This document shows positions 3,913-35,288 of a DNA stretch of 48,740 nucleotides, in pieces; the stretch's first letter is position 1; each line of letters opens with the position of its first letter. The stretch comes from a virus, in IMG/VR virus record IMGVR_UViG_3300006736_003596, positions 1 to 48,740 of that record. One strand, 5' to 3'. The notes below the pieces were generated by a model. The model saw only the letters and a program-made list of their open reading frames with translations. It had not been told where the DNA came from and did not search any database. A program made the translations under genes and the position numbers.

Positions 3913-6885
3913 CTACGTTCTATAATCATCGTCAACACTCAAAAAATCGTAAAAGTCAGTTATCTGTGATGACGTTCCGAACTCTGAACCACTATAATTT
4001 GCTGCGGGCCATATTCGTTTACCCATATAGTCATAAGTATTTTTAAATCCCCATTCATCTGCTTCCAGATCTGAAGAGCTAGTCACTCCAGAAGGCATGG
4101 TTAGCTCAGCGTCGAAGAACTTATACCATTCTTCATGCAGGGCACTCCAATGGTCATAGGCCGTGTCGAGTGCATAATCTATGAAGCTTTCAGATAGTGA
4201 GGGGGTCAACAAAGAGTAAAGCATGGCTCGGGCAGCTGCAGCATCACTAGTGCTAGTTGTATCCAAATAATCAATAAACCGTAAAATATATGGCAGTTTG
4301 AGATTAATTTCCGTTCGGATCCGTTCTCTCGAATAAAGAGTAGAAGTGTCATATGATGCCTCATCGATCGATGAGGCTATACTCCAGTCGGAATCTTCTA
4401 TTGGGTAGGCTAAAGCTGTTTCAATATCATCTAAGTACTCTGCTTCAGGCTCGCCGGCGTATATAATATCTGGGAGAATTGGAAATTCTTGATAGTATGT
4501 CTTCTCAATTGGCATATCAGCTACGAAGCCATATGCTTCCGTATAAGCATCAGCAAAAGCTTCCCATACAATACCAACACCCTCATTATAATAATTTGTA
4601 AAAAAATCGTTGTACCTTGTTCTAAAAGTTTCAAGTTGTTCAAGGTTGCCCGATTCAGGGGCGATATTCGCTGATATTTTCTGTGAGTCTTCTACGATAG
4701 CATCAAGATCGCCCTCAAAAGTATTAAGCAATAAATCGCGATGAATATTAAAAATCATCGGGGCTCGGAGCCACGGAGCATTGGACGTATCTTCTGAATA
4801 AAACTCACTAATTCCTTCGACAAAAAATTGATTAAAGAAGCCGGTTATATTATTATAGTTTCCCGTATCAACTGCATATCTATAATATTCATTTAAACTC
4901 CTTCCATCTGTCTGGAAGCCGTCTCTAAGGGTTTCATAAATTAAATAGCTATAATCAGTGCACGCAATTGAAAGCGTGTAATGTTCTTGACTATATTCTG
5001 TTGCGCCGCCCTCAGAGGCGGGAAGAACAGTGCCGTCAGAGGCCCCATCAATATTATAATAATCTTGAAAATAAAAGCATAGCATTCTGTATCCATCTCT
5101 TACTTCAGCCTTAGACTCATAATCTGAGGCTGGCATACCCACAACATTTCTAATACAAAGATAACTATAGTCGCTGCTTCCTCCCATTCCAACATCAACT
5201 TTGTCGTAATTCCACGATGGCCAGCTGCTGGAAGTTGTTGAATCGTGATCGCTTTTTAATCCGCAGTTATAAATCCTAAAAGAATCGCCATAGTTTGATG
5301 GCGTCGATATAAATTGAGCCACCATCTGTCTTACCTCTCGAAGCGTGTTGCTGGTGGCCGCTCTCTTGGTTAGTGTTGCTGTGTCTATCTTCAACGTTGC
5401 GTTCACCAAAGCGCTTCCAAAATAAGCCTCTAGTTTGTCAATGTTAAGCACGCTTGATATTACAGTGTCGTTTCTTAAAGCCTTTTCGTAATCAAACCAA
5501 AGATATCCATAATCGCATATTGTATCTTCAGGGTCCCATACAAAAGTTTCATCATCTTCTCCAGATGCAAGGGTTGACGAATAGGCATACCTTGTTATAA
5601 GGGCATCTCTTGTGTTGCTATAAATTCTATAATCATTGAGCGTTAAACCGTCTGTGGTACTCGGAGTCGGATCTGGCCGATCATAAGCCTCTATGGCTTC
5701 TTCGGCGCGCGAGTCTAAAACTTTAGGATTTCTGCTGATAACTTTAAAGACCGTCTCTTCTCGGCCGGCTTGTCTGTTTGTAGATACTAAGACATCTCTA
5801 AAAGAACGATATACTCCGCCTAAAGCTGTCGTAGAACTTTTATCAGGGAAAACCTTTCTATATTCATTTAACTCTTTTAACAAATTAGTTGAATCTGAAT
5901 AATTATCTAAAATATTGATTAAACTTTGAGAGGTGGCACTTGCATCTGCATCGTCAGATACCGGCGTTGTGGAGCCCGAAATGGATGCGATCAGCGAAGC
6001 TCTCTGTGGGAATTTTTTATATTCTCCTGCGACCGTATATATTGGTACGCCATCATACATTTTGCCTTCAGAGTCTACAAAAGATAATTCTTCGCCATCT
6101 GTCACAGTACCGTCATCGAAAACTACATCGTATGTAAGTTCGCCGGTCATAAAGTTTAACAACTCTGGCTTGTTGAGATAAATATTTTGTAGTTCGGACT
6201 CATCAAGACCAGAACTGCTGGCCTGGATCGTGAGCCAATCCAATGTAGAGCAAAAAACATAAACATTGATTTTTTTATAGTCTGCGCTTGTTATATCCAT
6301 TAAATCGTCTAAAGTATAAACAGCACTTGGCCATGGATTTATTGCTAAAGTTAATTCAATTGTAGCATTGTAAACAAAGTATCTTTGATTTGTATCTTCG
6401 TCATATATTCCCTCGCTATCCGCTAATGTAAACTCACTAAACTCAATTTGCTCGTAATTTCTTCTATTAATAATAACTGTTGCACCAGAGTCACTAGCAG
6501 TTTCACGCGTAAAGGTCTGAGTCTCCCTGGCGAACTCCACAAAGGTGGCGACGAAACCTTCAACACTAGTATCTGGATCATAGTTATACAAATGATTAAA
6601 AATATTTTCACCGGAGTTTAATATATCTTCATTTTCTTGTTCTCCAACAACATAAGCGCCGTAGACATTAAGATCGGCCAACATTGCCACGATAGCATCC
6701 GGAGGTTCTAAAGCATCATCATCAACGGCCGGAATATATATCGACAGTTCAAGCTCAAGACCATCAACGGTATCTCCATAAGAATTTGTTAGACCACTTT
6801 TTATATAAACCCTATTAATGTAGGGTACCGGAAGCTTCTCACCAAAAGCGGTGTCTAGGCTCTCGTCAAATGCAACTCTTAACAT
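3913..6885 (-). CDS. Large putative virion structural protein (990 aa)
   Basis: A 990-residue, strongly acidic protein poor in Lys and rich in Asp, Glu, Tyr, Ser and Thr. I recognise no catalytic motif or named domain. The first 270 residues look beta-rich and the central and C-terminal parts mostly helical with Tyr- and Trp-containing segments. There is no signal peptide or membrane span. ATG at 6885 overlaps the end of the 503-residue gene by 7 bases, implying coupled translation. Position downstream of gp25, gp6 and the giant LamG protein makes a baseplate, tail-fibre or fibre-connector role likely, by inference only. A T4 gp7- or gp10-like wedge role was considered, but I cannot support it from motifs. 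Confidence 0.65.
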   Translation of the reverse strand: MLRVAFDESLDTAFGEKLPVPYINRVYIKSGLTNSYGDTVDGLELELSIYIPAVDDDALEPPDAIVAMLADLNVYGAYVVGEQENEDILNSGENIFNHLYNYDPDTSVEGFVATFVEFARETQTFTRETASDSGATVIINRRNYEQIEFSEFTLADSEGIYDEDTNQRYFVYNATIELTLAINPWPSAVYTLDDLMDITSADYKKINVYVFCSTLDWLTIQASSSGLDESELQNIYLNKPELLNFMTGELTYDVVFDDGTVTDGEELSFVDSEGKMYDGVPIYTVAGEYKKFPQRASLIASISGSTTPVSDDADASATSQSLINILDNYSDSTNLLKELNEYRKVFPDKSSTTALGGVYRSFRDVLVSTNRQAGREETVFKVISRNPKVLDSRAEEAIEAYDRPDPTPSTTDGLTLNDYRIYSNTRDALITRYAYSSTLASGEDDETFVWDPEDTICDYGYLWFDYEKALRNDTVISSVLNIDKLEAYFGSALVNATLKIDTATLTKRAATSNTLREVRQMVAQFISTPSNYGDSFRIYNCGLKSDHDSTTSSSWPSWNYDKVDVGMGGSSDYSYLCIRNVVGMPASDYESKAEVRDGYRMLCFYFQDYYNIDGASDGTVLPASEGGATEYSQEHYTLSIACTDYSYLIYETLRDGFQTDGRSLNEYYRYAVDTGNYNNITGFFNQFFVEGISEFYSEDTSNAPWLRAPMIFNIHRDLLLNTFEGDLDAIVEDSQKISANIAPESGNLEQLETFRTRYNDFFTNYYNEGVGIVWEAFADAYTEAYGFVADMPIEKTYYQEFPILPDIIYAGEPEAEYLDDIETALAYPIEDSDWSIASSIDEASYDTSTLYSRERIRTEINLKLPYILRFIDYLDTTSTSDAAAARAMLYSLLTPSLSESFIDYALDTAYDHWSALHEEWYKFFDAELTMPSGVTSSSDLEADEWGFKNTYDYMGKRIWPAANYSGSEFGTSSQITDFYDFLSVDDDYRT

Positions 6886-8390
6886 ATTTCAGGCTCCGTA
6901 ACTCTTCCATAGATATCTATGAACTCAACCGGCTCTTTGTCGAAAGACTCACAATTAAAATCAAGATCTACATAATAAGACTCTTTGTTAAAAACAGAAG
7001 CACCCTTGCATGCCGTCTCTGGTAATATCTGATTATCCACTATAATATCTAAATAATATTCGACACTTGATGTTGTCAAAGATTGATTATACTTGATTTG
7101 TGGGTTGCTGTGCATCATCACACCATCAACAATTTGAGGTATTTCTTCTTTAAAGTATTTCTTCTCAAGCGTTTCTATTGCGTCTTTGCCGCCAGTAAAA
7201 ATGCCTCCAGTCCAAGGATCTATATCACTACTATCAGAAGTGGTGATTCGGGCGCCGCTAAATTGCGTATTAGTCAAAGACCCTCGAAGAGATTGGGGCC
7301 CAGCCTGCAGGTTCGTTATTGTAACTTCGGCTCCACTTGAGGAAGCGCTTACTTTAAGACTTGTGCTTGAATCTTCCACATAATTATTAATAACCGTAAC
7401 CAGTCTTTCTGCTAAAGTAGTTTTGCCATCAGCACCAGACACATCGCCGGCTTCAACATCTGTGCTTGCCGAAGCTCCGTTTTTAAAGGTAAATGTTACA
7501 GAAGTTGTGCCGTCATTAATCGTGACAGTAGAATCATAAATAGGAGTTCCTACTTCTAATATTTCAAATGGTGCGCTGGCATATTCTGACTCCGCTAATG
7601 TTCTATCAAACACTTCGATATCGAAGTTTTCAGTTAACAGTGTTGTGTTAACTTCATCAAGATATATGAGTCCGTGATCAGTTTTAAATTCGATTGAATC
7701 GCCGTCTATAAATGTTAAAGTTCGGTTGGTCATATCAGCAATATTTTCAGGATTTATATTTGTATAAGTACTAAAATTTGGGGGCAAGCTCAACGAAGAA
7801 TCTGTTCCATAATTAGCCTCTTTCGTATACTTTAAATCAATATTAACTTGCGGAATTTTACTTATCAAATTAACACTATCATGAACAGAAGAGGCTGATA
7901 TGTTCCCCTGTAAGCTTACTAATTTCCAAGCCGGCGCTGTGTGGGGGGCGCCTTCTAAAAATGCATCTCCAATTCCTTGATTTGATTTGAAAATATCAAT
8001 TCTTGGATTATTCATTGTAGGAGTTTCATCCGTTGAATAGGCTCCCAAAACAGATGTGCCGTCATCATCAACGTAAGTGTCTAGTTGGCCAATATTATTT
8101 TCTATTTCTTCAAACAAAACAAGACTTTCCAAATAGACAGTTTCTTCTTTAATCCTTTTATGAACTTCATTTTGATTTTCGCGCAACATCAAATTAACAT
8201 TTGATTTTTCTGGCGCTGGTCCTTCGAAGGCAGAGCCGGTGTACATGGCATATCTTTTGTCATAGATTACATTGTCATCGAAAAATTCATAATATGCGGG
8301 CTTAAACTTTCCAATCGAAAGCAAATAATTACCATAGCCCGTGAGCTTGATATCAAAAACTTGTTCTTTTTTGTTTAAAAATTTAGCCAT
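6879..8390 (-). CDS. Virion structural protein with an inserted beta module (503 aa)
   Basis: A 503-residue protein beginning MAKFLNKKEQVFDIKLTGYG. I recall similar openings from uncultured marine T4-like phages, where they are annotated only as structural; this is memory, not a search. Residues about 280-400 hold a beta module: the strand pattern TVTINDG and VTFTF, a helix ending VINNY, then VTITN and a closing FTGG. The same layout recurs in the tandem repeats of the neighbouring 3689-residue protein. The C-terminal 100 residues contain conserved-looking Cys and aromatic residues. The start forms a TAATG overlap with the giant gene's stop, so the two are probably translationally coupled and may assemble together. 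Confidence 0.65.
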   Translation of the reverse strand: MAKFLNKKEQVFDIKLTGYGNYLLSIGKFKPAYYEFFDDNVIYDKRYAMYTGSAFEGPAPEKSNVNLMLRENQNEVHKRIKEETVYLESLVLFEEIENNIGQLDTYVDDDGTSVLGAYSTDETPTMNNPRIDIFKSNQGIGDAFLEGAPHTAPAWKLVSLQGNISASSVHDSVNLISKIPQVNIDLKYTKEANYGTDSSLSLPPNFSTYTNINPENIADMTNRTLTFIDGDSIEFKTDHGLIYLDEVNTTLLTENFDIEVFDRTLAESEYASAPFEILEVGTPIYDSTVTINDGTTSVTFTFKNGASASTDVEAGDVSGADGKTTLAERLVTVINNYVEDSSTSLKVSASSSGAEVTITNLQAGPQSLRGSLTNTQFSGARITTSDSSDIDPWTGGIFTGGKDAIETLEKKYFKEEIPQIVDGVMMHSNPQIKYNQSLTTSSVEYYLDIIVDNQILPETACKGASVFNKESYYVDLDFNCESFDKEPVEFIDIYGRVTEPEIC

Positions 8391-11300
8391 TAGTAGCCAC
8401 CTCCGCCGCCAGAGCCGCCACCCCTACGGGAGGAAGGACGAGACATAATAGGTGTTCTTCTAGTTTTTTTGCCGGCCGAACCGGTTGTTTTTTCAAGAAT
8501 ACTTGGGTTGTGATATAAAACATCTACATCCATTTTAATCATCTCTACAAAGGATAAATAATCATAAGGCCAATTAAACCCGAGTTTATATCCTGCGGTT
8601 TCATCATCAAAGCTAAAAATATCTTTTGACGATTCTCCTGCTTGAGGAGTTATTAGATCATAGTAATTAGTTTGCGCTCTTTGTTTAACTTTAAACACCA
8701 TCCAGCGAAGATTTTCATTATTACTTAAACAGGTTTCTTGCAATAGCTCAGTGCTGATCAGTTCGTGAGAAATCGACTGATATTGTAGCTCTATTTTCTT
8801 AGAATTTCTTGGTGCGATATTTTGCCAAATATAAGATAAATCATCTTTATCAAATTTATACTCAAACTCAAACATATACATCACAATTGGTTCAACAGTT
8901 GTATCGCTCAAGAAATCGAATTGCGGAGGCAAAATATAGTTAGGCATTTTTTCTATCAGCTTTCTTATTGAGGTGCCGGCCGCGTCTAAAGAGTCGCCGG
9001 CTTTTGTTCCTTTGCTGGCTTTCAGTGCGGCATTAAATCTTTTTCTTGGTATTGAGATAAATTTCTTTCGTGTAGAAGTGAACTTGCTGGCCATTCTACT
9101 AATATTTTCAACGTCTTCAATAATATATGGGATAGCAACAACGGCTTCTTTAATTGTTCTAGATTCTGCTATCTCTCCCAGTCTCTTAGACGTAGAAGAT
9201 TTGCTAAACCCCACTATATCTGTCAAAGATTTCATTTTTTTATAAATGAGGCCGCCAGTATCAGCGTCATTATCATTATATACAGTATCGTTTATTATCA
9301 CATCATAATGATTCTTTAGCCAATCTGGTGGAATGTTGCCAATTTCCATAAATACGCCTTTATCTGGAGAATCCGGGATCACTCCGAACTGATGCCACAT
9401 ACCTCTCGGAACGGAACCAGACGCGAATGTCGGCAGAGTTAAATTGCCGGCGGCATTAGTGATCGGATGAACCCCCTTGTCATTAAAGTTTAACATTGGA
9501 GACTCCCATTTTGGTTGAATAACCCATCGCTTGCCGGCAGTAATGTTGGTGCCCTTAATCTTATTGCCGAAGCTATCTTCTTCCTGTTGTAACACTCTCT
9601 CAACACCGAGCAAGTTTAAGCTAGCGCTGATCTGCATTGCGTTAGCGTTTACGTTGTGTCCAGAATAGATGTAATTATCGGCGTTCGTAAAAGAAGCCGA
9701 ACCAAAAGATGAGATTAAAAGAGGATTGGCGCCGAGGTAATCAAAGCTTCCTGTACTGGGGCCCGGATCTGCTCTCCAATATACTTGCTCCATTTCAGTT
9801 AGGATCTGCTCCAAATCGTAACTCTTAGTGTGAGATGGCCTGAAGATCATATCCACCCAAGCTTCGCCATTCGCATAAGGTGGAGTAAACGACCAATTGA
9901 AGCCATAAAAACTATCCATTGGACTGGTTTTAGTAACAACGGCACCAACTGAGCCGGTGCCATCTGGCTGGCCGGCGACGGCTGGGCCGAAGGCTGAGGG
10001 TCTAGAATACATCGTAAAAGATTCTTTAAAGAGCTTTCCTTGTTTTGGATCTTGTGGCAGCGAGTAGGCGGCGATGCCAAAATTAGATCCATCATAAACA
10101 GCGCCTCCTTGTATGCTATATGCCGTGTTGTTGCCTAGGGAGCCAGAGTCGCCTCGATAATCTCGGGATCCCGATACCGATCTTTTTAGTTTAATTCTCG
10201 CACCATAAGCGGATCCCGAACTGAACCTTAAATCACTCGTAACTGTCTCGGAGGACAATTTAGTAAAATTGTTGTCTTTCAAAAAGAACGCGGCGACTTC
10301 TCCAAAGAAATTGCTGGCCATCATAGAGTAAATCTCATCGCCGGCAGTGCCCATAGAGGCCGTTGCATTCAAAGAAGCAGAAGGATGCGGCTCGACGTCT
10401 AAGAAATTTACTCCCGCTATATATTTTTCAGGGGCGAGGATAGCCTCAAACGGAATTTTAACATCCCAAAATTCTCCACCGCGATAGCCGGCTGCGGTAC
10501 TCGAAGGTGGTACCTGTGGTGTAATGGCCCAGTTATTGGAATCTTTCCCGTCATCAGCCCCATAATAAGATGCGCTAAGTTTAGTCGGATCCGTGATGGC
10601 GGGGTATTCTACTGCCATGCCGGCTTTAATAGAGTTGAACAATATCCCCGGGGCAAACAACGGCTGCAGCAGGGGCCTTAGCAGGCCTCCGTGATTTTGG
10701 ACTAAGTCTTGTCCGGAATATTTAAACGTCGAAGATGCTTTGATAGAGGCCTCAAAGCCAGCGCCGTATGAGCTTGAAAATTGAGACACTATATCGATTG
10801 TTCGCTGTGCAGGATAAAAGCCCTTATATGGATTAAATGATATCGCGGCGCTGCACACTAATCTGATTTCTTTCGCACCCAGGAGTGCGTCTTTTTTAAT
10901 TTTCAGAAAATCGTGAATAAATTCTGAATTAGAATAATCAATATAAAAGGAAGACGTGGAGCTGTTAAAGATCGTGCCCGGAATTTCAAAGGTGTCTGAT
11001 TTGTTTTTAGAATTTGTACCATATTTAATGTAGTCTTTTATGTGATTGCTGATTCGAAATTCTGGAATAATTGAGAAGTCGGGCGCAATCTTCTTAATAT
11101 CAGTCTTGAACCCCTGGTATGTATCAAACCACGGACTCGATGCAGAAGCCTCAAACGAAGGCGATGCATTAGAAATGGTTACGATTCCTGCTTGATCGCC
11201 GGCCTCCCAAAGGGCCTCTCCGCCGTATATATCAATTTGAATTCCTCGATTAAAGGGCATAAGGCCCTTTTCGATACTGCCTGTCTCTGCGATAAAGGGG

Positions 11301-14300
11301 CCGGTTGGAGCAACTACTGAACGCGGAGAAGAGATTAAATGTTTTCTTGAGTAAAGGGCGGCCGGCTTCATCACCTGGGGGGCTAACGGCGAGCCGATCG
11401 CAGCACCGCGGTGATAAGAAAAATAATTATTTTGTAATTCGCCGGCTGAGCCTATTTTTATTAATCCATGATCATCGCCAGAAGCTACCGTTGGCGCCGA
11501 TGATCTACTGAGAAAGTCCGCCTGGGCGTCGAGAGGCCAACAACTTTGTGAAACGGCTGGGCTGGTGGCACCGAAGGAGTTTGCTATAGAGTTACCAAGC
11601 TCAACTCTTTCATCCGTGCCGCCTCTCCAGAATTTATTATCATAATCAATTCTCTCGCGAGAAGAAGACAAAAACTCATTTTTTATTGACGGGAAAATAT
11701 TCTGAGAGTATAAAACCCAGTTTAAATGATACGTTGGAGTAGCGTTCACTGTACCTACGACTTGTTCGAAGGCAGTTGCAAACTCGGTATTTGGCAAACT
11801 TAGGCGATTATTTAAATCAGTATCATTAAAATAAATCTTTTCATTATTGTTGGTCATTTTTAAAGTTACATTGTCACCGTCTTGGTTATCATAATTAATA
11901 AGCATGGGCCGGCCCCTCATAGATACCGGAGGCAGATTGTATACAGTTATAGAGTCATCTTCTATTAGTGCTCGTGAAAGAGTTCCGCTTCGCTGTTCAT
12001 TTCTTAAAATTGGGTGATCTTGAATTCTCAATCGCTTCCAGTTCCACCCATAAGTACCGCCGCGCTTCGTCATCAATAGATTGAAATAATTTGCAGAAGT
12101 AGTTAAAAAGTTTTCTATTTGAGCCTTTGCAACCAATGTTTTGTTGATATATTCATCATTAGGAATCGTCGCCGGGAAGCCCAGCGTATTATTATCTGAT
12201 GCCGTAATTGGATCATAGGTTAAAATATTTAGCCTATTTACGGGTTGCCATAAACTTTGTGTAATTTCCGGCACAACTGAGCTAGCGCTAACAAAATCAA
12301 AATACGAAACATATCCATCAGCTGAGCTAGAAAAATATTCTGGGATATTTGAATTAGCAAATCCAAAAAATCTAATTCCTGAACCTGTTGTAGATTTGCT
12401 CAACCAAGAATATTGACGATCTGATCTGGGAATAGGATGTTGAACATAAAAGTTATCATACTTAGATTCGGATATTGTTGTAACGGTTTTAGGGCTGAAA
12501 TTGTCCCCATCATTTGAAATTTTAATTCTAATGAATCTGTTTCTATTAATTTTGTGAAACGAAGGTAGCTGATCATAAGAAGCTCCAGGCAAATCATTAG
12601 CAGAGGTAACAAACATAGAGTCGCGACCAAATCGAGCGCTGTGTCGCGACAAGTGTGAGCGTAAACCATAATCTTTACCATGAATATCAAAAACTCTTAT
12701 TCCGGCAGTACCAGAGCCTATTGGCTCCGAAAGAGATCCGGTAGATGCTTGAGATGGCTTGAGTACAGTTAGGTTTCTGTTTAGCAGGCAATTGTAGACT
12801 GAATATTCCGACGATCTATAATCAAGATAGCCGCGGCCCATAACCTCTATGCCGCCTGGGGCCGCAAACCTCGACACTATAACTGATTTATTTTCAGTAC
12901 CGGTCAAATATCCAGCATTATATTCGTCAACAAATTTAAAGTGACTACCTGAGTTTCTGCGCACATCTAATATTGTGCGCACATTTGTTGTGCTACTAGA
13001 ATGATCTAACTGAATTGTGCTCGGAAGTGATGGTTGCTCTTCTATAAATGCACGGGGATTTTCATAAGCACCCACAACATTTACCACTTCATAATTTCTT
13101 TGATAATTTCCTAGTGCCGATGCCGCGCCTGTGGTTATCTGTATGTTCCGAATATTTACCGGACGTTTTGCGACAAAATCTCTATATAACCAAGCTTTAT
13201 GAGAAGCGGTCATTGGATACGGAAGTATAGCGGGATCAGACCATTTCTCTTCATTGGCCTCGGGCCATGGATAATCTGGCGCTACCATGCCAATTGCACC
13301 AGTATAATCAGGCAAAAATGGATTACCGTCGACCGTGCCTAATAATAATTTCCATGCTTCAGGCCTGTTATACCACTGATCAGAGCCAGTATTAATGGCG
13401 ACATGTCTAGACTGATGTCCTCCAACCGCATAATCTGTAAAAGGGCCCTGCATTGGAACTTCGAAGGAATCTCCATAAACATCGTGATGTAAATTAACAA
13501 TCTCTATTCCACCAGTTACTCTATCGACAACAATCTTATTATATCCACTAACAACTGAAGAGCTAATAATATTAAAAGGAAAGGCAAACGCAGATTTAAC
13601 GTTAGTATATCCATTTCCGTCGTGCTCAAAACTCCTACCATGAAGGGCCTTTAGATATCTCTTAGTTAAGGGCTTCGCTAACTTATCAACTTGCCATTGA
13701 TGTGTTTCATGAAGCTCTACCAAGCTGTTGGCAAAACCCAAGATGACATTTTGAGGAATGAAAGTTATTCCACTGTTTTCAACCGGGCCTGCTGGTCGTA
13801 GGGCGTTATATGTAAAATCAATATTTTTGTTATCAGTAAAATTAACACCGCCTTTAATAACCGCTTCTTTATTTTTGGGATTACCAAACTGAATGTTGTA
13901 TAACTTCCCAAAGCTTCCGCTTGAAAATCCTCCTGCTGTATATGCAGTGCCGGCAGAAGTAAAGGAGAGGCGCGCGCTTTGACTTAAGGCGGGGGCCGAG
14001 TATATAACTCTTCTAAAAATGTTCCTTTGTACATCAATGTTAGCATTAACCACGGGAGAGTTAGTCGAACGGCTAGCTGATAATTCTGTAGCCGATCTTT
14101 CGGCTCTTTCATCCCAATATAATCTATTTTTTTTAGTAGAGCGAGGGGAGGCAGGTACAGTTGAGGAGCCGTCTTTCCACGAATATTGATTTTCACGGGC
14201 GGCCTTCATAGCGGCGTCCAGATCTGGCTCCTTAAATTCTATAGTTGGAAACTTAGACTGGTACTTATTTCTTTCAAGAACGTGACTCTCAATTGTATTC

Positions 14301-17300
14301 AAGAGATCGTTTTCAAAATCTGCGGAAGCAGGTATTAGCTGAGAGATGATTGTTGTAATTGCGTCATCAAACCACTTGTAATACCCAACAAATTTTTCTA
14401 CTTCTGTAACACTTTCAACCTTTCTAAAGAAAGCTTCCCTTAACTTTTCTAAGCCTTTGTAGCGATCTCTATATCTATTAACGGGGGCGCCGATAATATT
14501 ATTGAAATCAACAACCCCTGCAAAAAATTTAATCATTTCTTCAGAAATGGCATTGTACATACTCTTTTCTATTGTGTAATAATAGCTTGCAACATCATCA
14601 GGGCGGCCGAATACTTTATCGTCCTCGGATAAAATCTGTATCATGTCGGAGGAAACGACTCGCTCCGGATCTATAAATCTATAAGAATTTAATGCCTTTC
14701 TTTGAATTGTGTTTGTAGACGATGCCTTAAAGCCCTGGCCATATCCCGTATGTTGATATCCCACATAATTGCCGGCCCAACCATAATTATTTCTTAATTC
14801 AACCGAACCAGAACTCATATCAGTTATAAAAAAGTTGCCGTTTGAATCAGAGCCAGTTACATTTTCAAAATCCCAATATAGAGCCAACATATTATTATTG
14901 GTAATATCGTGACCAAAGCTGTTTAAATCTCTAGGAGAAGTGCTTTGATAGGATCCTGACAATCCTGCATTATTAAAATCATTTGCATGCTGTTCAAGAA
15001 TGCCATCATCAAGATATTTTGTCCAATATTTTATGTTGTTTACAAGAACATCTGTCTTAATGATAGTTGAGCCAGTTATGTTTTCTTTATAGGCTCCAGC
15101 ATATGTTCTTTTTGCTGCGTTTAAAAAGCTTGTTGCAACTGAGTGATTTAACGACGCAGTTAGCTTAAATGAATTTTGAATGTAACCATTTTCATTATTA
15201 AATCCACTAAAAACCAAATCATAATTATTAAACCCACTTTTGAAAGACTCAACAGAGCCGCTTACTATACCGGCAGGACCACGAGAACTAGTCAACGATG
15301 GAACAATCCTGACAGAAAGATTCCACTTACTATCGTTATAGACGCCCATAAAATTACTGCTTGTAAGTGTTGGAAGTGGAACTTTACCACCTAATCCTTC
15401 ATTGGAAGAAGAAAGCATAAATCTAACATTTTTAGAATTTTCGATATCTCTAATTGAAAATACTTGAAAGTTTGCCACATCGGGGCCCGAATCAATTCCT
15501 AAGCTTGTTATCCAAGATGTCTTAGCTCCTGATTTAATAGCCGCACTTCCTGTGGCCACCGTATAGAGGCCAAACAAAGATGCAGTTAAAAAGTTTCTTG
15601 TAAACTTGTCTCTTCTTGCATAGAATGTAGGAAACACAAAGCTTCCTTCTGCTGTAAATCCATACGGATCTTCTATGCCTCTAAATCCTCCTCCGCCTAG
15701 ACCGCCTAACGGCGCATTGAGCGCGCTATATCCGGCGCCGTGAGAACCAGAAATATACCCGCTCGTATCTCCAGATAGCACATTTGTCGGCGCAGGTTCA
15801 AACGCAGAACCAGTGTAACTCTTCTGATATACGACTGCTTCTGTATTATCTGCATCATTAAAGTTTAAAACGTTTTTGTTGATTAAAATCTGTTGAAGAT
15901 TGTTTTTTAATTCATAAGTTGAGTTATTTGCATATGCATTTAATCTGAATAGCTCTTCATCAATATTGAAACACCTGAAAACGTTTCTAATTGATTTCTC
16001 AGTACCCTTTGATTTGTAGATGTTTGTTAAATTATTATATAAATTGAGGTAAATTAAGTTTTTTGTTTCGTCTAAATCTCCATCAAACGATCCAGTGAGA
16101 TTTCTATTTAAAAAAGCCTCCATCACCGTTGAGTCGACAAAAAGAGACGGGGTTGCCAATCCAAGCGATTGTGGCAAATGTTGCGCAAACGGAATCGGCT
16201 TATGTGAGGCGCTTGTATAATTTTTGTGCTTTAAGCTGGGGAAGCTTTGAATTTGTAAATATATTTTATCAAAGTAAGTTCCAATAATATGGCTCATCTT
16301 TCGAAGATCTGAAGTGTCTTCATTGCCATTAGCTTCATCTTCTTCAATTATCCACGAAGGCACCATATTTAACATAGACGCATTATTTTGAGCATCATGA
16401 TATGATCCACTACTTAAAAGATCTGTCTTCAGAGTGCTAACATCGGGATGCGTTGAATAAATAATTGGATCTTTATATTCGTATGTGTGGGCGGATCCGC
16501 TGGCCAGCACAATCGCCGAGCCCGTTGCTCTTGAATTAGAGCCGTAACCAGTCCATACACCATTGCATATACGACCGCTATAGTCTAAAACGTACTGATC
16601 GGTGGCCGTTACGCCCGTTATACCCTCATTAAATTTATAATACACACCAAGAGCCGTATTAGAAATATCTGTGTTTACACCGCCTCTTGTTTGATCAAAC
16701 CAGTTTAAGCCAACTTCGCGCGCGGTCCTTGCGGTTTTCCAAAACCTAAACTCATCAAGAGAGCCAGAAAGCTTTCCGGCGCCGGCCAAGGATCCCGTTG
16801 CTGTTGTTTCTGAAGGCGCCGTCAAGAGGGCGCCCAATCTGCCCATCATATCTTTTGATGGTAGTTCTCCAATCGTTCCTGTGTGGGTTAAAGTATCGTC
16901 ATATTCTCCGTCAACAAAAAACTTAACCGCATGGCCACTACCGGTATTTTGCATTACAAATGCATAATGGTGCCATTTTGCAAGAGTATCAACGTCTATA
17001 TTAGCACCAATCGATTGTTGAAAAATACCAGGACTAGCATTTCCAGATTGTACGGTGATCATAAAAGGACTTTCAGGCCCACCACTAGTGAAATCGGTTT
17101 TTGATAGCCCTGTAGCACCGATTTCCGATATCGTGATTGCTGTGTTACCAGCAGGGCCCGGATCTGCTTGTGTGATTGTAGTCACGTTGGAAGATTTTAC
17201 CGCAGAAAACTTTGTATGATAGTTTATTGCTCTCATAATCTCGTCTGCTTGTGCTGTTGCGTGAAGGGTAGCATTGGCATAGCTGCCAGCGGATAAGGTT

Positions 17301-19459
17301 TTTGCAGTTAATGTTGTACCACTTGTTTCTGCGGAGGTTGTAGAACCATTCGAGCCACCGGAAAAGTTGGTTTTCGACATACCGGTAGCACCTAGTTCTG
17401 TTATCGTAATTGTCGTGTTCCCATCAGCCCCCGAGGTGGCTTGTGTCACCGTGATCACGTTTGAAGATTTTGTCGCAGAAAACTTTGTGTGGTAGTTAAT
17501 CGCCCTCATTATTTCATCTGCTTGCGCTGTTGCATGCAGGGCAGCGCTGCCGTAGCTGCCAGCAGATAAAGTCTTAGCGGTTAATGTTGTACCGCTTGTT
17601 TCAGATGAAGTTGTAGATCCGTTCGAACCACCAGTGAAATTGGCTTTCGACAAGCCAGTGGCACCTAATTCTGTTATCGTAATTGTTGTATTACCATCGT
17701 AGCCCGTAGTTGCCTGTGTTACAGTAATCACATCGTCAACACCACCAGTGAAATTGGTTTTCGACATACCGGTAGCACCTAGTTCTGTTATTGTAATCGT
17801 CGTATCACCATCTGCGCCATTTATTGCCTGTGTTACAGTAACAACATTTGCAGAGTTTGTTGCAGAAAACTTTGTGTGATGATTGATTGCTGTCTTGATT
17901 TCAACTGCTTGAGCAGTTGCATGCAGAGTACTATTAGCATAGCTGCCGGCAGATAAAGTCTTAGCGGTTAATGTTGTACCGCTTGTTTCTGCGGAGGTTG
18001 TAGATCCGCCCGTGCCCTGCATAGTAAGCGTCACTTCTGTTTCATCGGTAGCAATCAGCTTGATGGTGTCGCCTTCGCCAATAAAAGGTACTCCGGGTGG
18101 GGAACTAGAATCGATAACAGTGATGGTTGCAGTTGCAGCGGTAGGAGAAGCCTTCGTCGCAGAAAGCTTTGTGTGGTAGTTAATCGCCCTCATTATTTCA
18201 TCTGCTTGTGCTGTTGAATGCAGATTAGCATTAGCATAATTACCGGCAGCTAAGGTCTTAGCAGTAAGAGCATCTCCACTTGTCTCTGCAGAGGTTGTAG
18301 ACCCGGCCTGACCCTGCATGGTGAGTGTAACTGTTTGCGCGTCAGTAGAGATCAATTTGATGGTATCGCCTTCGCCAATATAGGCTACATCAGGAACGTT
18401 TATGGTAATGGTACCAGCCGCTGCAGCCTCTGTTTGGCCTTCAAGAGAAAGTGTGACGGTTGTCTCATCAGTAGAAATTAATTCAATGGTGTCTCCTTCA
18501 CCAATATTAGCTACATCCGTGGCACTTACAGTGATGGCTGCTGTTGCGGAGGCCTCTGTTTGGCCTTCAAGAGAAAGTGTGACGGTTGTTCCATCGGTAG
18601 AGGTTAATCCAATGGTGTCTCCTTCACCAATATTAGCTACATCCGTGGCACTTACAGTGATAGTGGCGGTAGAGGCGACGGAGCCGGAACCTAACTCAAT
18701 CGTTACGCGGCCATAATCATGTTCGGTATCAGCATTATTGTTCCACATATCAAAAACAACTTGCTGTGTTGTTTCGTTCCTCAAAGTTGTTAAAGGAATT
18801 GCGGAACCAGTTTTTAACCAAAACTCAACAGTAACACCATTATCAAAATCAGACTTTAAGTTTGACTCGCGAGAACCGGAGCCATATGTAGAAGGAAGGC
18901 CTTCGGTTGCGTATATGTTCTCGTCATAAATATTAGCATTTTGAAACTTACTATTATATTCATTTACCGAAAGCGCAGTTAAAGAACTATTAGACAACGA
19001 GCCAGTTCCAGGACCGCCTTTAAAAGTAATATATTCTTGCGTGCCAGGAATTCCATAGCCATCGCAATCATCCGGATCATTCGTAGAACCGCCCCAGCCA
19101 CCATTTTGATCATTAGCAAATGTAATAAAACCATTTGTGCGGGGATAAAGATTATCAAAAATATATCTTTCAATATCTAATAGTTGATTATAATATTCAT
19201 TCTTCTCAGCATCAGATCCATCATATGGATAATAGTCTTGGATCCACTCTATTGCAGATTTATAATAAAGATATGCAGAGCCATACTTGGCAAATCTTTC
19301 AGGCTTTTTAAAATCAACTGGCGGTTTAAAAGTTTTTTGCTTTTCGGTTAATGCTTCCACATTTCTATAAGACTCGACGTCGCCAAAAGCCTCTTTCTCG
19401 TTTTTTTGAGACGAATAATTTCTAGAACTTTCTGTATCAAAAAGTTTTTTAATGCTCAT
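8390..19459 (-). CDS. Giant LamG-domain virion protein, probable tail fibre or baseplate-periphery protein (3689 aa)
   Basis: At 3689 residues this is the largest protein in the window. Residues about 206-250 (VTVEFWLKTGS, then YGRVTIEL) and about 823-923 (WHHYAF, VKFFVDGEYDD, then LDEFRFWKTAR) are the two halves of a laminin-G/concanavalin-A-like lectin domain, a fold that often binds glycans. They are separated by about 540 residues of tandem beta repeats. The remaining 2,700 residues are rich in Ser, Gly, Asn and aromatic residues, without a named domain I can identify. The C-terminus ends in an Arg/Gly-rich tail (GGGSGGGGGY). I recall LamG proteins with a similar N-terminus from marine phage metagenomes. 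The likely role is host-surface recognition; a gp7-like wedge function is an alternative suggested by position after gp6. The overlap with the preceding gene is 11 bases. Confidence 0.75.
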   Translation of the reverse strand: MSIKKLFDTESSRNYSSQKNEKEAFGDVESYRNVEALTEKQKTFKPPVDFKKPERFAKYGSAYLYYKSAIEWIQDYYPYDGSDAEKNEYYNQLLDIERYIFDNLYPRTNGFITFANDQNGGWGGSTNDPDDCDGYGIPGTQEYITFKGGPGTGSLSNSSLTALSVNEYNSKFQNANIYDENIYATEGLPSTYGSGSRESNLKSDFDNGVTVEFWLKTGSAIPLTTLRNETTQQVVFDMWNNNADTEHDYGRVTIELGSGSVASTATITVSATDVANIGEGDTIGLTSTDGTTVTLSLEGQTEASATAAITVSATDVANIGEGDTIELISTDETTVTLSLEGQTEAAAAGTITINVPDVAYIGEGDTIKLISTDAQTVTLTMQGQAGSTTSAETSGDALTAKTLAAGNYANANLHSTAQADEIMRAINYHTKLSATKASPTAATATITVIDSSSPPGVPFIGEGDTIKLIATDETEVTLTMQGTGGSTTSAETSGTTLTAKTLSAGSYANSTLHATAQAVEIKTAINHHTKFSATNSANVVTVTQAINGADGDTTITITELGATGMSKTNFTGGVDDVITVTQATTGYDGNTTITITELGATGLSKANFTGGSNGSTTSSETSGTTLTAKTLSAGSYGSAALHATAQADEIMRAINYHTKFSATKSSNVITVTQATSGADGNTTITITELGATGMSKTNFSGGSNGSTTSAETSGTTLTAKTLSAGSYANATLHATAQADEIMRAINYHTKFSAVKSSNVTTITQADPGPAGNTAITISEIGATGLSKTDFTSGGPESPFMITVQSGNASPGIFQQSIGANIDVDTLAKWHHYAFVMQNTGSGHAVKFFVDGEYDDTLTHTGTIGELPSKDMMGRLGALLTAPSETTATGSLAGAGKLSGSLDEFRFWKTARTAREVGLNWFDQTRGGVNTDISNTALGVYYKFNEGITGVTATDQYVLDYSGRICNGVWTGYGSNSRATGSAIVLASGSAHTYEYKDPIIYSTHPDVSTLKTDLLSSGSYHDAQNNASMLNMVPSWIIEEDEANGNEDTSDLRKMSHIIGTYFDKIYLQIQSFPSLKHKNYTSASHKPIPFAQHLPQSLGLATPSLFVDSTVMEAFLNRNLTGSFDGDLDETKNLIYLNLYNNLTNIYKSKGTEKSIRNVFRCFNIDEELFRLNAYANNSTYELKNNLQQILINKNVLNFNDADNTEAVVYQKSYTGSAFEPAPTNVLSGDTSGYISGSHGAGYSALNAPLGGLGGGGFRGIEDPYGFTAEGSFVFPTFYARRDKFTRNFLTASLFGLYTVATGSAAIKSGAKTSWITSLGIDSGPDVANFQVFSIRDIENSKNVRFMLSSSNEGLGGKVPLPTLTSSNFMGVYNDSKWNLSVRIVPSLTSSRGPAGIVSGSVESFKSGFNNYDLVFSGFNNENGYIQNSFKLTASLNHSVATSFLNAAKRTYAGAYKENITGSTIIKTDVLVNNIKYWTKYLDDGILEQHANDFNNAGLSGSYQSTSPRDLNSFGHDITNNNMLALYWDFENVTGSDSNGNFFITDMSSGSVELRNNYGWAGNYVGYQHTGYGQGFKASSTNTIQRKALNSYRFIDPERVVSSDMIQILSEDDKVFGRPDDVASYYYTIEKSMYNAISEEMIKFFAGVVDFNNIIGAPVNRYRDRYKGLEKLREAFFRKVESVTEVEKFVGYYKWFDDAITTIISQLIPASADFENDLLNTIESHVLERNKYQSKFPTIEFKEPDLDAAMKAARENQYSWKDGSSTVPASPRSTKKNRLYWDERAERSATELSASRSTNSPVVNANIDVQRNIFRRVIYSAPALSQSARLSFTSAGTAYTAGGFSSGSFGKLYNIQFGNPKNKEAVIKGGVNFTDNKNIDFTYNALRPAGPVENSGITFIPQNVILGFANSLVELHETHQWQVDKLAKPLTKRYLKALHGRSFEHDGNGYTNVKSAFAFPFNIISSSVVSGYNKIVVDRVTGGIEIVNLHHDVYGDSFEVPMQGPFTDYAVGGHQSRHVAINTGSDQWYNRPEAWKLLLGTVDGNPFLPDYTGAIGMVAPDYPWPEANEEKWSDPAILPYPMTASHKAWLYRDFVAKRPVNIRNIQITTGAASALGNYQRNYEVVNVVGAYENPRAFIEEQPSLPSTIQLDHSSSTTNVRTILDVRRNSGSHFKFVDEYNAGYLTGTENKSVIVSRFAAPGGIEVMGRGYLDYRSSEYSVYNCLLNRNLTVLKPSQASTGSLSEPIGSGTAGIRVFDIHGKDYGLRSHLSRHSARFGRDSMFVTSANDLPGASYDQLPSFHKINRNRFIRIKISNDGDNFSPKTVTTISESKYDNFYVQHPIPRSDRQYSWLSKSTTGSGIRFFGFANSNIPEYFSSSADGYVSYFDFVSASSVVPEITQSLWQPVNRLNILTYDPITASDNNTLGFPATIPNDEYINKTLVAKAQIENFLTTSANYFNLLMTKRGGTYGWNWKRLRIQDHPILRNEQRSGTLSRALIEDDSITVYNLPPVSMRGRPMLINYDNQDGDNVTLKMTNNNEKIYFNDTDLNNRLSLPNTEFATAFEQVVGTVNATPTYHLNWVLYSQNIFPSIKNEFLSSSRERIDYDNKFWRGGTDERVELGNSIANSFGATSPAVSQSCWPLDAQADFLSRSSAPTVASGDDHGLIKIGSAGELQNNYFSYHRGAAIGSPLAPQVMKPAALYSRKHLISSPRSVVAPTGPFIAETGSIEKGLMPFNRGIQIDIYGGEALWEAGDQAGIVTISNASPSFEASASSPWFDTYQGFKTDIKKIAPDFSIIPEFRISNHIKDYIKYGTNSKNKSDTFEIPGTIFNSSTSSFYIDYSNSEFIHDFLKIKKDALLGAKEIRLVCSAAISFNPYKGFYPAQRTIDIVSQFSSSYGAGFEASIKASSTFKYSGQDLVQNHGGLLRPLLQPLFAPGILFNSIKAGMAVEYPAITDPTKLSASYYGADDGKDSNNWAITPQVPPSSTAAGYRGGEFWDVKIPFEAILAPEKYIAGVNFLDVEPHPSASLNATASMGTAGDEIYSMMASNFFGEVAAFFLKDNNFTKLSSETVTSDLRFSSGSAYGARIKLKRSVSGSRDYRGDSGSLGNNTAYSIQGGAVYDGSNFGIAAYSLPQDPKQGKLFKESFTMYSRPSAFGPAVAGQPDGTGSVGAVVTKTSPMDSFYGFNWSFTPPYANGEAWVDMIFRPSHTKSYDLEQILTEMEQVYWRADPGPSTGSFDYLGANPLLISSFGSASFTNADNYIYSGHNVNANAMQISASLNLLGVERVLQQEEDSFGNKIKGTNITAGKRWVIQPKWESPMLNFNDKGVHPITNAAGNLTLPTFASGSVPRGMWHQFGVIPDSPDKGVFMEIGNIPPDWLKNHYDVIINDTVYNDNDADTGGLIYKKMKSLTDIVGFSKSSTSKRLGEIAESRTIKEAVVAIPYIIEDVENISRMASKFTSTRKKFISIPRKRFNAALKASKGTKAGDSLDAAGTSIRKLIEKMPNYILPPQFDFLSDTTVEPIVMYMFEFEYKFDKDDLSYIWQNIAPRNSKKIELQYQSISHELISTELLQETCLSNNENLRWMVFKVKQRAQTNYYDLITPQAGESSKDIFSFDDETAGYKLGFNWPYDYLSFVEMIKMDVDVLYHNPSILEKTTGSAGKKTRRTPIMSRPSSRRGGGSGGGGGY
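17060..18310 (-). repeat. Tandem protein-coding repeat, about 273-base (91-residue) unit
   Basis: A longer unit encodes TTSAETSGTTLTAKTLSAG, a helix with the pattern ADEIMRAINYHTKFSA, then a strand with TITITELGATG and a closing FTGG or FSGG. A shared landmark for the TTLTAKTL segment lies at 17308, 17581, 17968 and 18265, giving spacings of 273, 387 and 297 bases. The 387-base interval contains an extra partial copy of the C-terminal third. All spacings are multiples of three, so the frame is kept. The repeats sit between the two halves of the LamG fold. Confidence 0.8.
18300..18690 (-). repeat. Tandem protein-coding repeat, 126-base (42-residue) unit
   Basis: Within the giant LamG gene, a unit encoding the pattern ITVSATDVANIGEGDTI followed by TTVTLSLEGQ occurs twice with a 126-base period (the same GCCTC landmark lies at 18426 and 18552). 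A more diverged third copy lies at about 18305-18420, and a fourth, lengthened copy at about 18010-18140, beyond the range given here. Nucleotide identity of the first two copies is high, implying recent duplication. Each unit probably forms a small beta hairpin or strand pair. Confidence 0.8.
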
Positions 19460-21125
19460 AGTTTTCTACTCTAAATTTAAAAACATTCTCTTGCTCTACC
19501 CAAGTTGATAACGAATCGTCATAAAAAGAAAATTTGAATGCATATTCATATCCGGGCTCTAAAAGGTTCATATTAAAATCAAAATAATTTCCTGATACAT
19601 CATGCGACAAGTAAGTGTGTTTGTCACTACCTGTCCCATACGGCACCGCGGCATAAGCATCTATTGCGCGGTAAACTCTATAAGATGCACTATAAATTGT
19701 TTTTATTTCAATGTTTGAATTTGCTTTTGTATAGATATTGGGGCTCCAATTTTTTTCTCTTACATATAAATTAAACCTAGCAGTTTCATCGCCCCTATAA
19801 GTGTTTCGCAAATTAGTAATACTTAGATAATTCCTGCTTGCCTGTATCGTGTTTGAGCTGTCCTGAAGTCTTGGCTTAATGGAGCCGGTGTGGAATCTTC
19901 TCTTTAAGTGCGTTCCATCCGCAAGACTTCCGCTAGACCAAACATCGTATAAAGTTAGAACGGGATCAAAGCCAGTGGCCAACTCAGAAGCCGTGATAGC
20001 CAACGAGGCAGAATATATTCCAGTTGATACCCAGCCGCCGGTTGCAAAATATTGCAATACAACGTTGGCGCCATCTGTTGTGCCGGGAGTGGACTGGCTA
20101 TTTATCAAAAGGGCCCCACTAGAGCCAGTGGGCGCGGTGTCATCTATATTTCCAGAAAACAAACTCACCATAACAGAGCCAGTTTTTTCAATACCAGCGA
20201 TATTTTTAAGCTGGCCTCTCACATAATTGTATAAATAAATTGTGTTTAGGTTATCTGCTGGAGAGGCCATTGAACTGCTGTAATAAAAATTGCCGCGGTC
20301 ATCACATAAAGAATCGTTCCAACGAGCCTCAATGTATGGTCTCTTAAAGAAATATTGACTTTTTCTTCCAAAAAATCTTTTAATATAGTATGAAGACTGG
20401 GAGCCGCTTGGGTTTTCTATATTGCCCTCGTCATCTGCTCTACCGGATACTTTGCCGGCCAGATAATCAACCGCGCCAGACGCTTCTTGGCTGGCTGTCA
20501 ACATTATGCCAATGCCATAATTTGAATATGTGCCTGCGATCCATTGCTCAATCCAAGGCGTAACATCTATCTCAATATCTTCTGTGCCATCTGCAAGTGT
20601 TTGATCAAAGATGTAAATCGAAGTGTCTACCTGTTCATTAGATCCAGCAGAATAAGTGTGATAAGAGCCGCCGGCCAAAAGAGTTCCGGCAACATCTGTC
20701 CAGTAATTACTATCAGATGCCGACATCCAATTGCTCCCTTCTTTTCCAAGAGTCAAATCAGTATAGCCTTCCATATCAAGACCAACGCCCTCTTGCCATG
20801 ATTGTGAAACCATTTGAAATACATATTTTGCATCTTTAGGAACAGTTCGAGAATGAGGCGCGTTAAACACACGCAGATAGAAGCTGACGCTACCGCTGGC
20901 CGGAATTGTATCGGCGGTCCGATCGGACGATATGTCAGTTACGGGAAATTTAAGCAACACTCGCGACAATTCTGCCGAACTAGTTGATTGTCTTCCGTAT
21001 ATCGAGAATACATCCAACACATCAGAGGCGCCCATATTGGCGCCAGTACCTCTTGTTTGAAGGTTTGGTTTATATGTATTTGCAATCGTTGTATCTGCGC
21101 TGGCTGTATATCTTCTTATGGCCAT
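19449..21125 (-). CDS. Virion structural protein with DNRLRE-like N-terminal domain (558 aa)
   Basis: The first 210 residues resemble the DNRLRE/carbohydrate-binding-like beta domain seen in many surface proteins: ADTTI near the start, an early asymmetric strand RVLLKFPV, a later FYLRVFNA strand, and a Trp-containing motif before the second half (VTPWIEQWIAGT). The second half is beta-rich; residues from about 430 (FNLYVREKNWSP) to the end look like one more sandwich domain. There is no membrane span or catalytic motif. ATG at 21125 shares one base with the gp6-like gene's stop, and its own end overlaps the giant LamG gene by 11 bases. This places it between wedge and fibre genes, so it may be an adaptor or baseplate-periphery protein (inferred). 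Confidence 0.65.
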   Translation of the reverse strand: MAIRRYTASADTTIANTYKPNLQTRGTGANMGASDVLDVFSIYGRQSTSSAELSRVLLKFPVTDISSDRTADTIPASGSVSFYLRVFNAPHSRTVPKDAKYVFQMVSQSWQEGVGLDMEGYTDLTLGKEGSNWMSASDSNYWTDVAGTLLAGGSYHTYSAGSNEQVDTSIYIFDQTLADGTEDIEIDVTPWIEQWIAGTYSNYGIGIMLTASQEASGAVDYLAGKVSGRADDEGNIENPSGSQSSYYIKRFFGRKSQYFFKRPYIEARWNDSLCDDRGNFYYSSSMASPADNLNTIYLYNYVRGQLKNIAGIEKTGSVMVSLFSGNIDDTAPTGSSGALLINSQSTPGTTDGANVVLQYFATGGWVSTGIYSASLAITASELATGFDPVLTLYDVWSSGSLADGTHLKRRFHTGSIKPRLQDSSNTIQASRNYLSITNLRNTYRGDETARFNLYVREKNWSPNIYTKANSNIEIKTIYSASYRVYRAIDAYAAVPYGTGSDKHTYLSHDVSGNYFDFNMNLLEPGYEYAFKFSFYDDSLSTWVEQENVFKFRVENYEH

Positions 21126-22935: not shown

Positions 22936-23301
22936 TTAAATAGTAAATCTTAATAAATCTTTCATCTGAATTCCTGGGACTGAATAATTTATAGAAATAT
23001 TGAGCCTGCTTGTATCAAGATTATCTCTATTAATAATAATATCAAATATTGTAATGGCGGGCATATATTTTTTTACTTGTTCTCTTATTTTATGATCGAT
23101 CTGGGATGAAAGATGATCCCCAAAACTATCAAATAAATATTTTTTTAGACCAACGCCATAATCAGGAATCATCACTCTTTCGCCCGGGATCGTCAAAATT
23201 AACATTTTTAAATTTTGTCTTACGACAGAAAAAATGCTGTCATTAGTTTCAAAACCATTAGTTGAATTTTTGTTTAATGGAAGGGCTATACTTATAGACA
23301 T
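22936..23301 (-). CDS. Baseplate wedge protein gp25-like (121 aa)
   Basis: A small protein of the gp25/W-like baseplate family, which sits at the sheath-baseplate junction and starts sheath assembly. The signature lies at residues about 38-65: PGERVMIPDYGVGLKKYLF, including the conserved Glu-Arg pair of the EPR-type core. The helix that follows contains DHKIREQVKKYMP, and the C-terminal strand carries LNISINYSVPG. At 121 residues it is close to T4 gp25 (132). It precedes gp6 directly, as expected for the baseplate module. The start follows an AGGA-type Shine-Dalgarno sequence. Confidence 0.9.
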   Translation of the reverse strand: MSISIALPLNKNSTNGFETNDSIFSVVRQNLKMLILTIPGERVMIPDYGVGLKKYLFDSFGDHLSSQIDHKIREQVKKYMPAITIFDIIINRDNLDTSRLNISINYSVPGIQMKDLLRFTI

Positions 23302-33977: not shown

Positions 33978-34928
33978 TTACCATTTAAAATTATTTTTAT
34001 AATATTCAACTATTGGTTTAATTTCTTTATCGAAATTCTTTTGTGGTGTCCATCCAAGGGCCCGTAATTTATCGTCGTTCAAAGCATAACGAATATCTTG
34101 ACCTTCTCTAACATACGAAAGATCAAGATATTCGTTCCACTCTCTTTTTTCTCCGAAATAACATTCTAAAACCTTAGAAACGGTTTCAATGTTTGCTTGC
34201 TCAAAACCGCCGGCTACATTGTAAATTCCATTCTTTATGCCGGATTCAATTAATGTTATAACAGCGGTGGCAGTATCGTCTGAATGTAGCCAGTTTCTAA
34301 CGGGGGTGCCCTTGTTGTGGAGCTTGATCTTCTTATTTCTCATTAAATTTTTGACCACTAATGGTATTAATTTTTCAGGATATTGACCAATTCCATAATT
34401 ATTAGTTGGTCTCAAAATTAAATAATTAATCCCATAAGTTCTTGCCCATGCGAGAACCAACATATCAGCGGCGGCCTTAGATGCAGAATATGGATTACTT
34501 GGCTTTAAAATATCGGTCTCTATATGCTCGCCCTCGACAATATCTCCATACACTTCATCCGTGCTAAAATGAAAGAATACTGGGCGGTCACTTACATTGT
34601 TTTGTTTATTTCTAATTAGGTCAAGTAGATTTTTGACACCGACAATATTTGACTCAATAAAGTCGGAGCTATCGACAATGCTATTTCCAACATGAGACTC
34701 AGCAGCAACATTAATAATATAATCACAATCAGGAAGATATTTTAATTTAGCTATGTCTTCTTTTATAAAATTGAAGTTATCATAAATCGAAAATCCACTT
34801 AATAGGTTTTTATTTGCTGCGTAAGTACAGCTGTCAATTCCATATACCATCCAGCCTTTGTCTAAGCACTCTTTCGTGACATGCGAGCCGATAAGGCCAA
34901 GACAGCCTGTAATTACAATTAGCTTCAT
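33978..34928 (-). CDS. dTDP-glucose 4,6-dehydratase-like NAD(P) enzyme (316 aa)
   Basis: An extended short-chain dehydrogenase/reductase of RmlB type, which turns a nucleotide-bound hexose into its 4-keto-6-deoxy form. The Rossmann motif TGCLGLIGS (Gly8, Gly11, Gly14) binds NAD. STDEVYG supplies Thr123, Asp124 and Glu125, the RmlB catalytic trio. YSASK supplies Tyr147 and Lys151. RPTNNYGIGQYPEKLIP is a substrate-binding signature of this family. At 316 residues it is slightly shorter than RmlB (about 360). It directly follows the cupin gene with no gap and is the last gene of the sugar island. The substrate could be dTDP- or UDP-linked; I cannot tell which. Confidence 0.85.
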   Translation of the reverse strand: MKLIVITGCLGLIGSHVTKECLDKGWMVYGIDSCTYAANKNLLSGFSIYDNFNFIKEDIAKLKYLPDCDYIINVAAESHVGNSIVDSSDFIESNIVGVKNLLDLIRNKQNNVSDRPVFFHFSTDEVYGDIVEGEHIETDILKPSNPYSASKAAADMLVLAWARTYGINYLILRPTNNYGIGQYPEKLIPLVVKNLMRNKKIKLHNKGTPVRNWLHSDDTATAVITLIESGIKNGIYNVAGGFEQANIETVSKVLECYFGEKREWNEYLDLSYVREGQDIRYALNDDKLRALGWTPQKNFDKEIKPIVEYYKNNFKW

Positions 34929-35288
34929 TTAATCACCTTTTAAAATTCTATGGCTGTCACTATCAAAGTGCTGAGTAGAAAACTCAAATAATTCTGAATC
35001 CTGTAGGGCTACCATCTGGTGTCGCAGACCTCGGTAAACATGAAAATTATCACCTGCATTTAATATTAATTGATTTGCGCTAGAGAGATTATCTTCTTCA
35101 GAATAATATATCATCATTTTGCCCGATTGCAAATAAAATACTTCATCTTTTAGTTTGTGATAGTGCCACGAACATCGCATGCTTTGTTTAAAGTATAACA
35201 ATTTGCCACAATATTCTTCACAATTTACAATCCAGCGTTCCCATCCCCATCCTTTTTCAACGTGTTTCATCGGTAAAGAAGTCTTCAT
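34929..35288 (-). CDS. Cupin, mannose-6-phosphate isomerase-like/sugar-related (119 aa)
   Basis: A single-domain cupin. Conserved elements are KGWGWERW near the start, WHYHKLKDEVFYLQSG (the His-x-His and Glu metal ligands of cupin motif 1) and GLRHQMVAL (the His of motif 2). Similar small cupins act on, or regulate, sugar phosphates and nucleotide sugars in polysaccharide clusters. An in-frame ATG at 35306 would give 125 residues, but the ATG at 35288 has AAGGGG seven bases upstream, so I prefer it; a third ATG at 35270 lacks one. The chosen start overlaps the HAD gene's end by 32 bases. Confidence 0.75.
   Translation of the reverse strand: MKTSLPMKHVEKGWGWERWIVNCEEYCGKLLYFKQSMRCSWHYHKLKDEVFYLQSGKMMIYYSEEDNLSSANQLILNAGDNFHVYRGLRHQMVALQDSELFEFSTQHFDSDSHRILKGD

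Follow-up and report, generated by a model that had tools for sequence, protein, structure and literature searches.

A beta-sandwich module probably nested within itself inside the LamG domain of a giant viral tail-region protein

Results

We analysed a stretch of 48,740 bases (the window), the IMG/VR record of an uncultured bacterial virus, probably marine. A giant protein encoded there carries a LamG domain (Pfam Laminin_G_3) that breaks off at aa ~257 and resumes at ~797. The interruption is probably the work of a roaming module that entered a LamG hairpin and was then repeatedly inserted into itself, in the order LamG > A > B > C > D.

The giant gene and its neighbourhood

The gene is located on the minus strand, downstream of the baseplate wedge genes, and an IMG/VR scan with the conserved stretch downstream of LamG as the query confirmed at least 574 relatives of its product. 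The genes concerned are the following.

8390..19459, minus strand: giant tail-region protein gene, a single ORF of 3,689 aa from a family with hundreds of IMG/VR relatives
19449..21125, minus strand: neighbouring gene, 558 aa
21125..22924, minus strand: baseplate wedge protein, gp6-like (phrog_6, phrog_219, phrog_10646)
22936..23301, minus strand: baseplate wedge gp25 (PF04965, E=2.6e-14)

Profile searches returned no sheath match for the giant LamG protein. Neither the giant protein nor its single modules found a match among annotated phages, which is weak evidence of absence because the low-complexity filter may mask Thr/Gly/Ala-rich sequence; the cellular genomes searched gave zero confirmed matches. 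Elsewhere in the window, the next gene downstream (6879-8390, minus strand) matches the module described below weakly at aa ~303-377, and a sugar-modification cassette at 33978-39472 (minus strand) comprises a nucleotide-sugar epimerase (phrog_540), an aminotransferase (phrog_3139) and a glycosyltransferase (phrog_14945).

A LamG domain interrupted at one beta hairpin

The sequence-only reading had proposed two LamG halves, at aa 206-250 and 823-923 (window 18844-18710 and 16993-16691), held apart by a large insert of beta repeats in a loop of a single LamG domain. Matches to PF13385 support these halves. The right half alone matched with E=1e-9 and 39.2 bits (cut-off 27.6), and joining the halves raised the match to E=2.6e-12 and 47.5 bits, covering profile positions 16-150 of 151, so that the window protein exceeds the Pfam gathering score for the family. 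Uninterrupted relatives matched in a single stretch from profile position 8 or 14 to 151 (E 3e-9 to 5e-12, 37-48 bits). Despite the insert, the two halves may form one LamG domain, as the uninterrupted homologues suggest, and this part of the protein is a putative sugar-binding-type domain. An AlphaFold2 model of aa 1-1000 including the insert, built from eight sequences, reached a pLDDT of 35.

18689..18844, minus strand: LamG left part, aa 206-257, with YGRVTIEL as its final strand
17078..18673, minus strand: whole nested insert, aa 263-794, 532 aa; the site is empty in L169 and L171
16691..17068, minus strand: LamG right part, aa 798-923, starting SPFMITVQSG

On alignment, the insertion point coincides exactly with one beta hairpin, between YGRVTIEL and SPFMITVQSG, where L003, L006, L007, L009, L011-L014 and L018 show no break. 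In the nearest LamG sequences, L169 and L171, whose left-flank DNA is 72-74% identical, the site is empty, as in TIELLGTSSTSPFMVTV. The length of LamG could be measured in 62 relatives, most of which lack an insert and keep the hairpin intact: in 52 of them LamG is uninterrupted, with 131-196 residues separating the landmarks, and the other 10 have inserts. Among these ten is L168, which is the L002 contig and belongs to the phage of the window. Inspection of the LamG junction by eye revealed no obvious target-site duplication.

A second LamG loop, the one after YV(D/N)G..ND, is also used. It holds a second LamG domain in L013, L170, L172 and L238, and single module-like stretches in L009, L182, L187 and L193. 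The inner LamG of L013 and L170 itself seems to contain a module-like stretch.

Seven pieces of one module tile the insert

The insert had been described as about 540 residues made of two repeat families, with units of 126 and about 273 bases. It is present, with an insert proper of 532 residues, and Tandem Repeats Finder (TRF) recovered both periods (273, 114 and 126 in this region); judged from the sequence, however, the two "families" represent opposite ends of a single module of ~128 residues. An HMM built from the module copies of the window and its relatives matched the window at module positions 1-44, 1-41, 1-92, 1-128, 93-128, 38-128 and 38-128, giving seven pieces.

18548..18673, minus strand: module A left (A_L), aa 263-304, 42 aa, 126 bp, module positions 1-42
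18422..18547, minus strand: module B left (B_L), aa 305-346, 42 aa, 126 bp, module positions 1-42
18143..18421, minus strand: module C left (C_L), aa 347-439, 93 aa, module positions 1-93
17741..18136, minus strand: module D, the complete innermost copy, aa 442-573, 132 aa, subtype W1
17627..17740, minus strand: module C right (C_R), aa 574-611, 38 aa, module positions 94-end
17354..17626, minus strand: module B right (B_R), aa 612-702, 91 aa, 273 bp, module positions 38-end
17078..17353, minus strand: module A right (A_R), aa 703-794, 92 aa, module positions 38-end

These pieces tile aa 263-794 almost without linkers, as the balanced brackets A(B(C(D))). At all six internal junctions an interrupted position meets a true module end, and the left and right break points agree.

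Predicted fold of the module

Structure prediction for module D (33 sequences; pLDDT 90.5, pTM 0.88) suggests that the module is a beta-sandwich of ~128 residues, with strands at 2-7, 24-28, 34-42 and 55-60, a helix at 69-84 and further strands at 90-95, 98-103, 114-117 and 124-126. On this model the break in A and B (~42) falls in the loop after strand 34-42 and the break in C (~95) in the hairpin turn 95-98, while a third break seen in a relative, L096 (~16), lies in the loop ahead of strand 24-28. A permutation test on loop classes gave p ~7e-4, but the classes were assigned by hand and related loci were counted, and we do not lean on this value.

The nearest solved folds were an additional domain of a tail sheath (8kee; Z 9.6, rmsd 2.1, 85 aligned) and a T7-like nozzle protein (8i4m; Z 9.2), followed by the sheath domains of Milano, PhiTE and Mu (Z 7-8.5) and the outer domains of FliC and FliD (4nx9, 5fhy; Z 5-7.7 by VIA-align), where a Z below 8 may mean nothing beyond a common arrangement. 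Foldseek matched the module to 8fop (Milano gp20) with E 0.0098, and the top profile match, to the same protein, had E=0.035 or 0.17. Searches of Pfam and PHROG gave no credible family match for the module. Scattered Pfam hits to FliMN_C, NifU and Phage_attach on the repeats were judged to be chance, FliMN_C passing the cut-off on one fragment.

The module roams among related viruses

The module was found in 101 ORFs, which fall into 24 groups once module sequence is masked; the first count may be inflated by repeated contigs and the second by short fragments. The unrelated host proteins number ~20, and within the giant family the module occupies ~11 different places (L003 coordinates). At the LamG hairpin of the window, the states seen are empty (L169, L171, L003), one module of other subfamilies (L041, L066) and four modules (the window). 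The homologue of the neighbouring gene 19449-21125 in L022 and L029 is an 810-aa ORF with two in-frame single modules, which the window copy is without. Since related viruses bear this roaming domain in many other places, the piling of one domain into another seems to be a way in which virus surfaces are remodelled.

Changes of other kinds were also seen. In another module-bearing protein, the related versions from L051 and L058 have five and four module copies, respectively, partly in plain tandem, a difference between lineages. A block inside the giant gene spans ~215 residues in contig L074 (6181-6830) and ~33 in contig L077 (6181-6281), with 99% identity between the two contigs on either side of it. 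This block is a recent domain gain or loss, and such change in the giant family can be recent.

Occurrence in so many unrelated proteins and sites, together with the fact that most relatives manage without the module, would also suit a selfish or neutral passenger that hairpin turns tolerate and from which the phage gains nothing. Pairwise comparison of the window copies gave dN of 0.05-0.4 and dS mostly from 0.5 to saturation. Near-saturated dS with low dN indicates that the copies are old and under purifying selection, a pattern that points to constraint and speaks against quick expansion, though the need to fold would, by itself, also constrain the sequence. We consider mere baggage unlikely. 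Rather improbable, in our judgement, is the bolder idea of a self-propagating protein-level element that prefers hairpin turns, including its own, spreads by dedicated or sequence-guided recombination and changes host contact through ever deeper stacks.

Nesting rather than tandem duplication

The same order of pieces could be produced by partial tandem duplications, in which one initial module in the LamG loop had its first 42 and last 91 residues repeated, leaving a linear array of half-modules. A_L and B_L are indeed adjacent and 88% identical in DNA, and exact repeats of 50-59 bp and 40-49 bp occur inside the insert (window 17483/18167 and 18484/18610) in otherwise diverged copies. However, all six junctions use true module ends and pair at matching loops, whereas a linear array would consist of half-sandwiches with strands missing. 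Subtype assignment argues in the same direction. Module D scores +67 bits for subtype W1 (copies of L017 and L018) over W2 (copies of L022), while all six partial pieces favour W2 by 8-33 bits, and trees of the module halves agree with this split (bootstrap 93 and 97). As D is W1 and its flanks W2, D is not a product of flank duplication.

Relatives provide further cases. A T-type module lies inside X-type halves in L083, a W-type module inside X-type halves in L017, and L096 has three levels, X>T>X, in which the very short middle-left piece barely discriminates. These inner modules of a foreign subfamily rule out simple tandem duplication for those proteins. In L035 and the L042 group the break is at the same hairpin as in C of the window, and in L050 a complete module is flanked by two left and two right halves, as with A and B. 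For A, B and C, all of subtype W2, it is geometry alone that argues for nesting. Between A_L and B_L dS is 0.33, against ~1.2-1.35 between A_R and B_R, and this requires that duplication or gene conversion among the copies took place later; the perfect repeats of 40-59 bp also suggest gene conversion between modules. Taken as an account of the whole insert, tandem duplication is distinctly improbable, and an order in which the halves of one domain enclose another is borne out by the tiling, subtype and subfamily tests.

Copy number is constant in the within-species sets compared

It had further been suggested that gain and loss of repeats could alter the reach of a tail fibre in the manner of phase variation, and a comparison of copy number across relatives had been proposed. 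Between lineages the number does vary (0, 1 or 4), and perfect repeats of 40-59 bp could recombine. Within species, however, it is fixed in all the sets checked. Aligned over 17,603 bp, the window and L002 (3300025082) show 5 mismatches, no gap and an insert identical in layout, and copy number was identical across six contigs of the L042 nest and across four L018-group contigs (with as many as 54 SNPs in 7.5 kb). No difference was found in any set of near-identical contigs checked (these three and others). Phase variation is therefore unsupported; the copies are old and diverged at synonymous sites, and losing one left or right piece would wreck a domain. Since left and right halves must stay paired, a length change by slippage would break nested modules. 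The identical patches suggest that copies sometimes recombine, so that rare length change may occur, but copy-number switching as a device is highly improbable. The time of insertion could not be read from the flanks, which are saturated against L169 and L171 (dS 1.5-2.3).

An assembly artefact, with chimeric or collapsed repeats in a repetitive region of an uncultured virus, is hardly credible. The insert recurs in a second contig, L002, which shows 5 mismatches and not one gap against the window over 17.6 kb; the frame stays open from end to end, and, at under 60 bp, even the longest of the exact repeats is shorter than an ordinary read.

Discussion

In the explanation that we favour, a beta-sandwich module of ~128 residues would have entered a LamG beta hairpin at its turn, in frame, in a giant, baseplate-proximal virion protein, and would then have served as a landing site three more times: A received B in one of its loops, B received C in the corresponding loop, and D went into a hairpin of C. 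If the module ends are close to each other, which hairpin insertion demands, the host domain would stay foldable after each insertion. The confident model is that of the unsplit module; the left and right pieces of A, B and C presumably pair in three dimensions, and the insertions may have arisen via recombination between phages. The sequences themselves show one module family, exact tiling, empty sites, many sites and proteins, foreign inner modules, fixed copy number within species and purifying selection.

The stack would project outward from the lectin domain. By analogy with phage Ig-like domains, it could be an ornament or spacer that adds weak binding to hosts or particles and extends reach; near the baseplate it would likely extend or modulate weak contacts with host surfaces or particles, or stabilise the virion. 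Very large phage tail proteins may thus have a route of growth through hairpin insertions, beyond end-to-end repeats, with the nest here reaching four levels inside a lectin domain. Because one site occurs empty, singly occupied and nested in a family of hundreds, the rules of tolerated insertion can be read from nature and tested. There is a warning here too: what looks like "two repeat families" in a protein of this kind may be split copies of one domain.

Several known systems share parts of this arrangement. In flagellin and FliD, the outer domains interrupt a conserved core and differ from strain to strain. Those in 4nx9 and 5fhy have a fold similar to the module, but no relation at the level of sequence family was seen, and they belong to bacterial filament proteins, not to a phage tail. 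The additional domains of tail sheaths (Milano gp20, 8fop; cyanophage A-1(L), 8kee; Mu, 9ki1) share the predicted fold (Z 7-9.6 over ~85-96 residues). They are beta-sandwiches that supplement a conserved core, itself composed of N- and C-terminal parts, much as the module supplements its host domain, and a role in adhesion or virion stability has been proposed for them (Evseev et al. 2022, PMC9230969). Unlike in these, the host protein in the window is not a sheath, and the modules enter each other and roam among many proteins.

Weak binding has been suggested for the Ig-like domains on phage virions, an idea available to us as cited in PMC9230969. As far as this second-hand account goes, they too are beta-sandwich ornaments spread between unrelated phage proteins, although of a different family, and self-nesting is undescribed for them in the open-access literature searched. 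The BACON domains of crAssphage, whose tandem repeats are called evolutionary hotspots (PMC6949934), are likewise repeated beta domains in a phage protein, but are described as a tandem array, whereas those in the window are split and nested. Domain shuffling in phages is already known (PMC10684548). We found no phage protein described in the open-access literature searched in which one module is repeatedly nested in itself, although this does not establish priority. Deep nesting is shared with the SI3 insertions of the cyanobacterial RNA polymerase beta' subunit, which reach up to six levels (PMC13114784); that stack is confined to one conserved polymerase, whereas the phage module nests in itself and roams many sites. 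Nested domain insertion is known, and the window appears to present a self-nested, roaming version of it in a phage protein.
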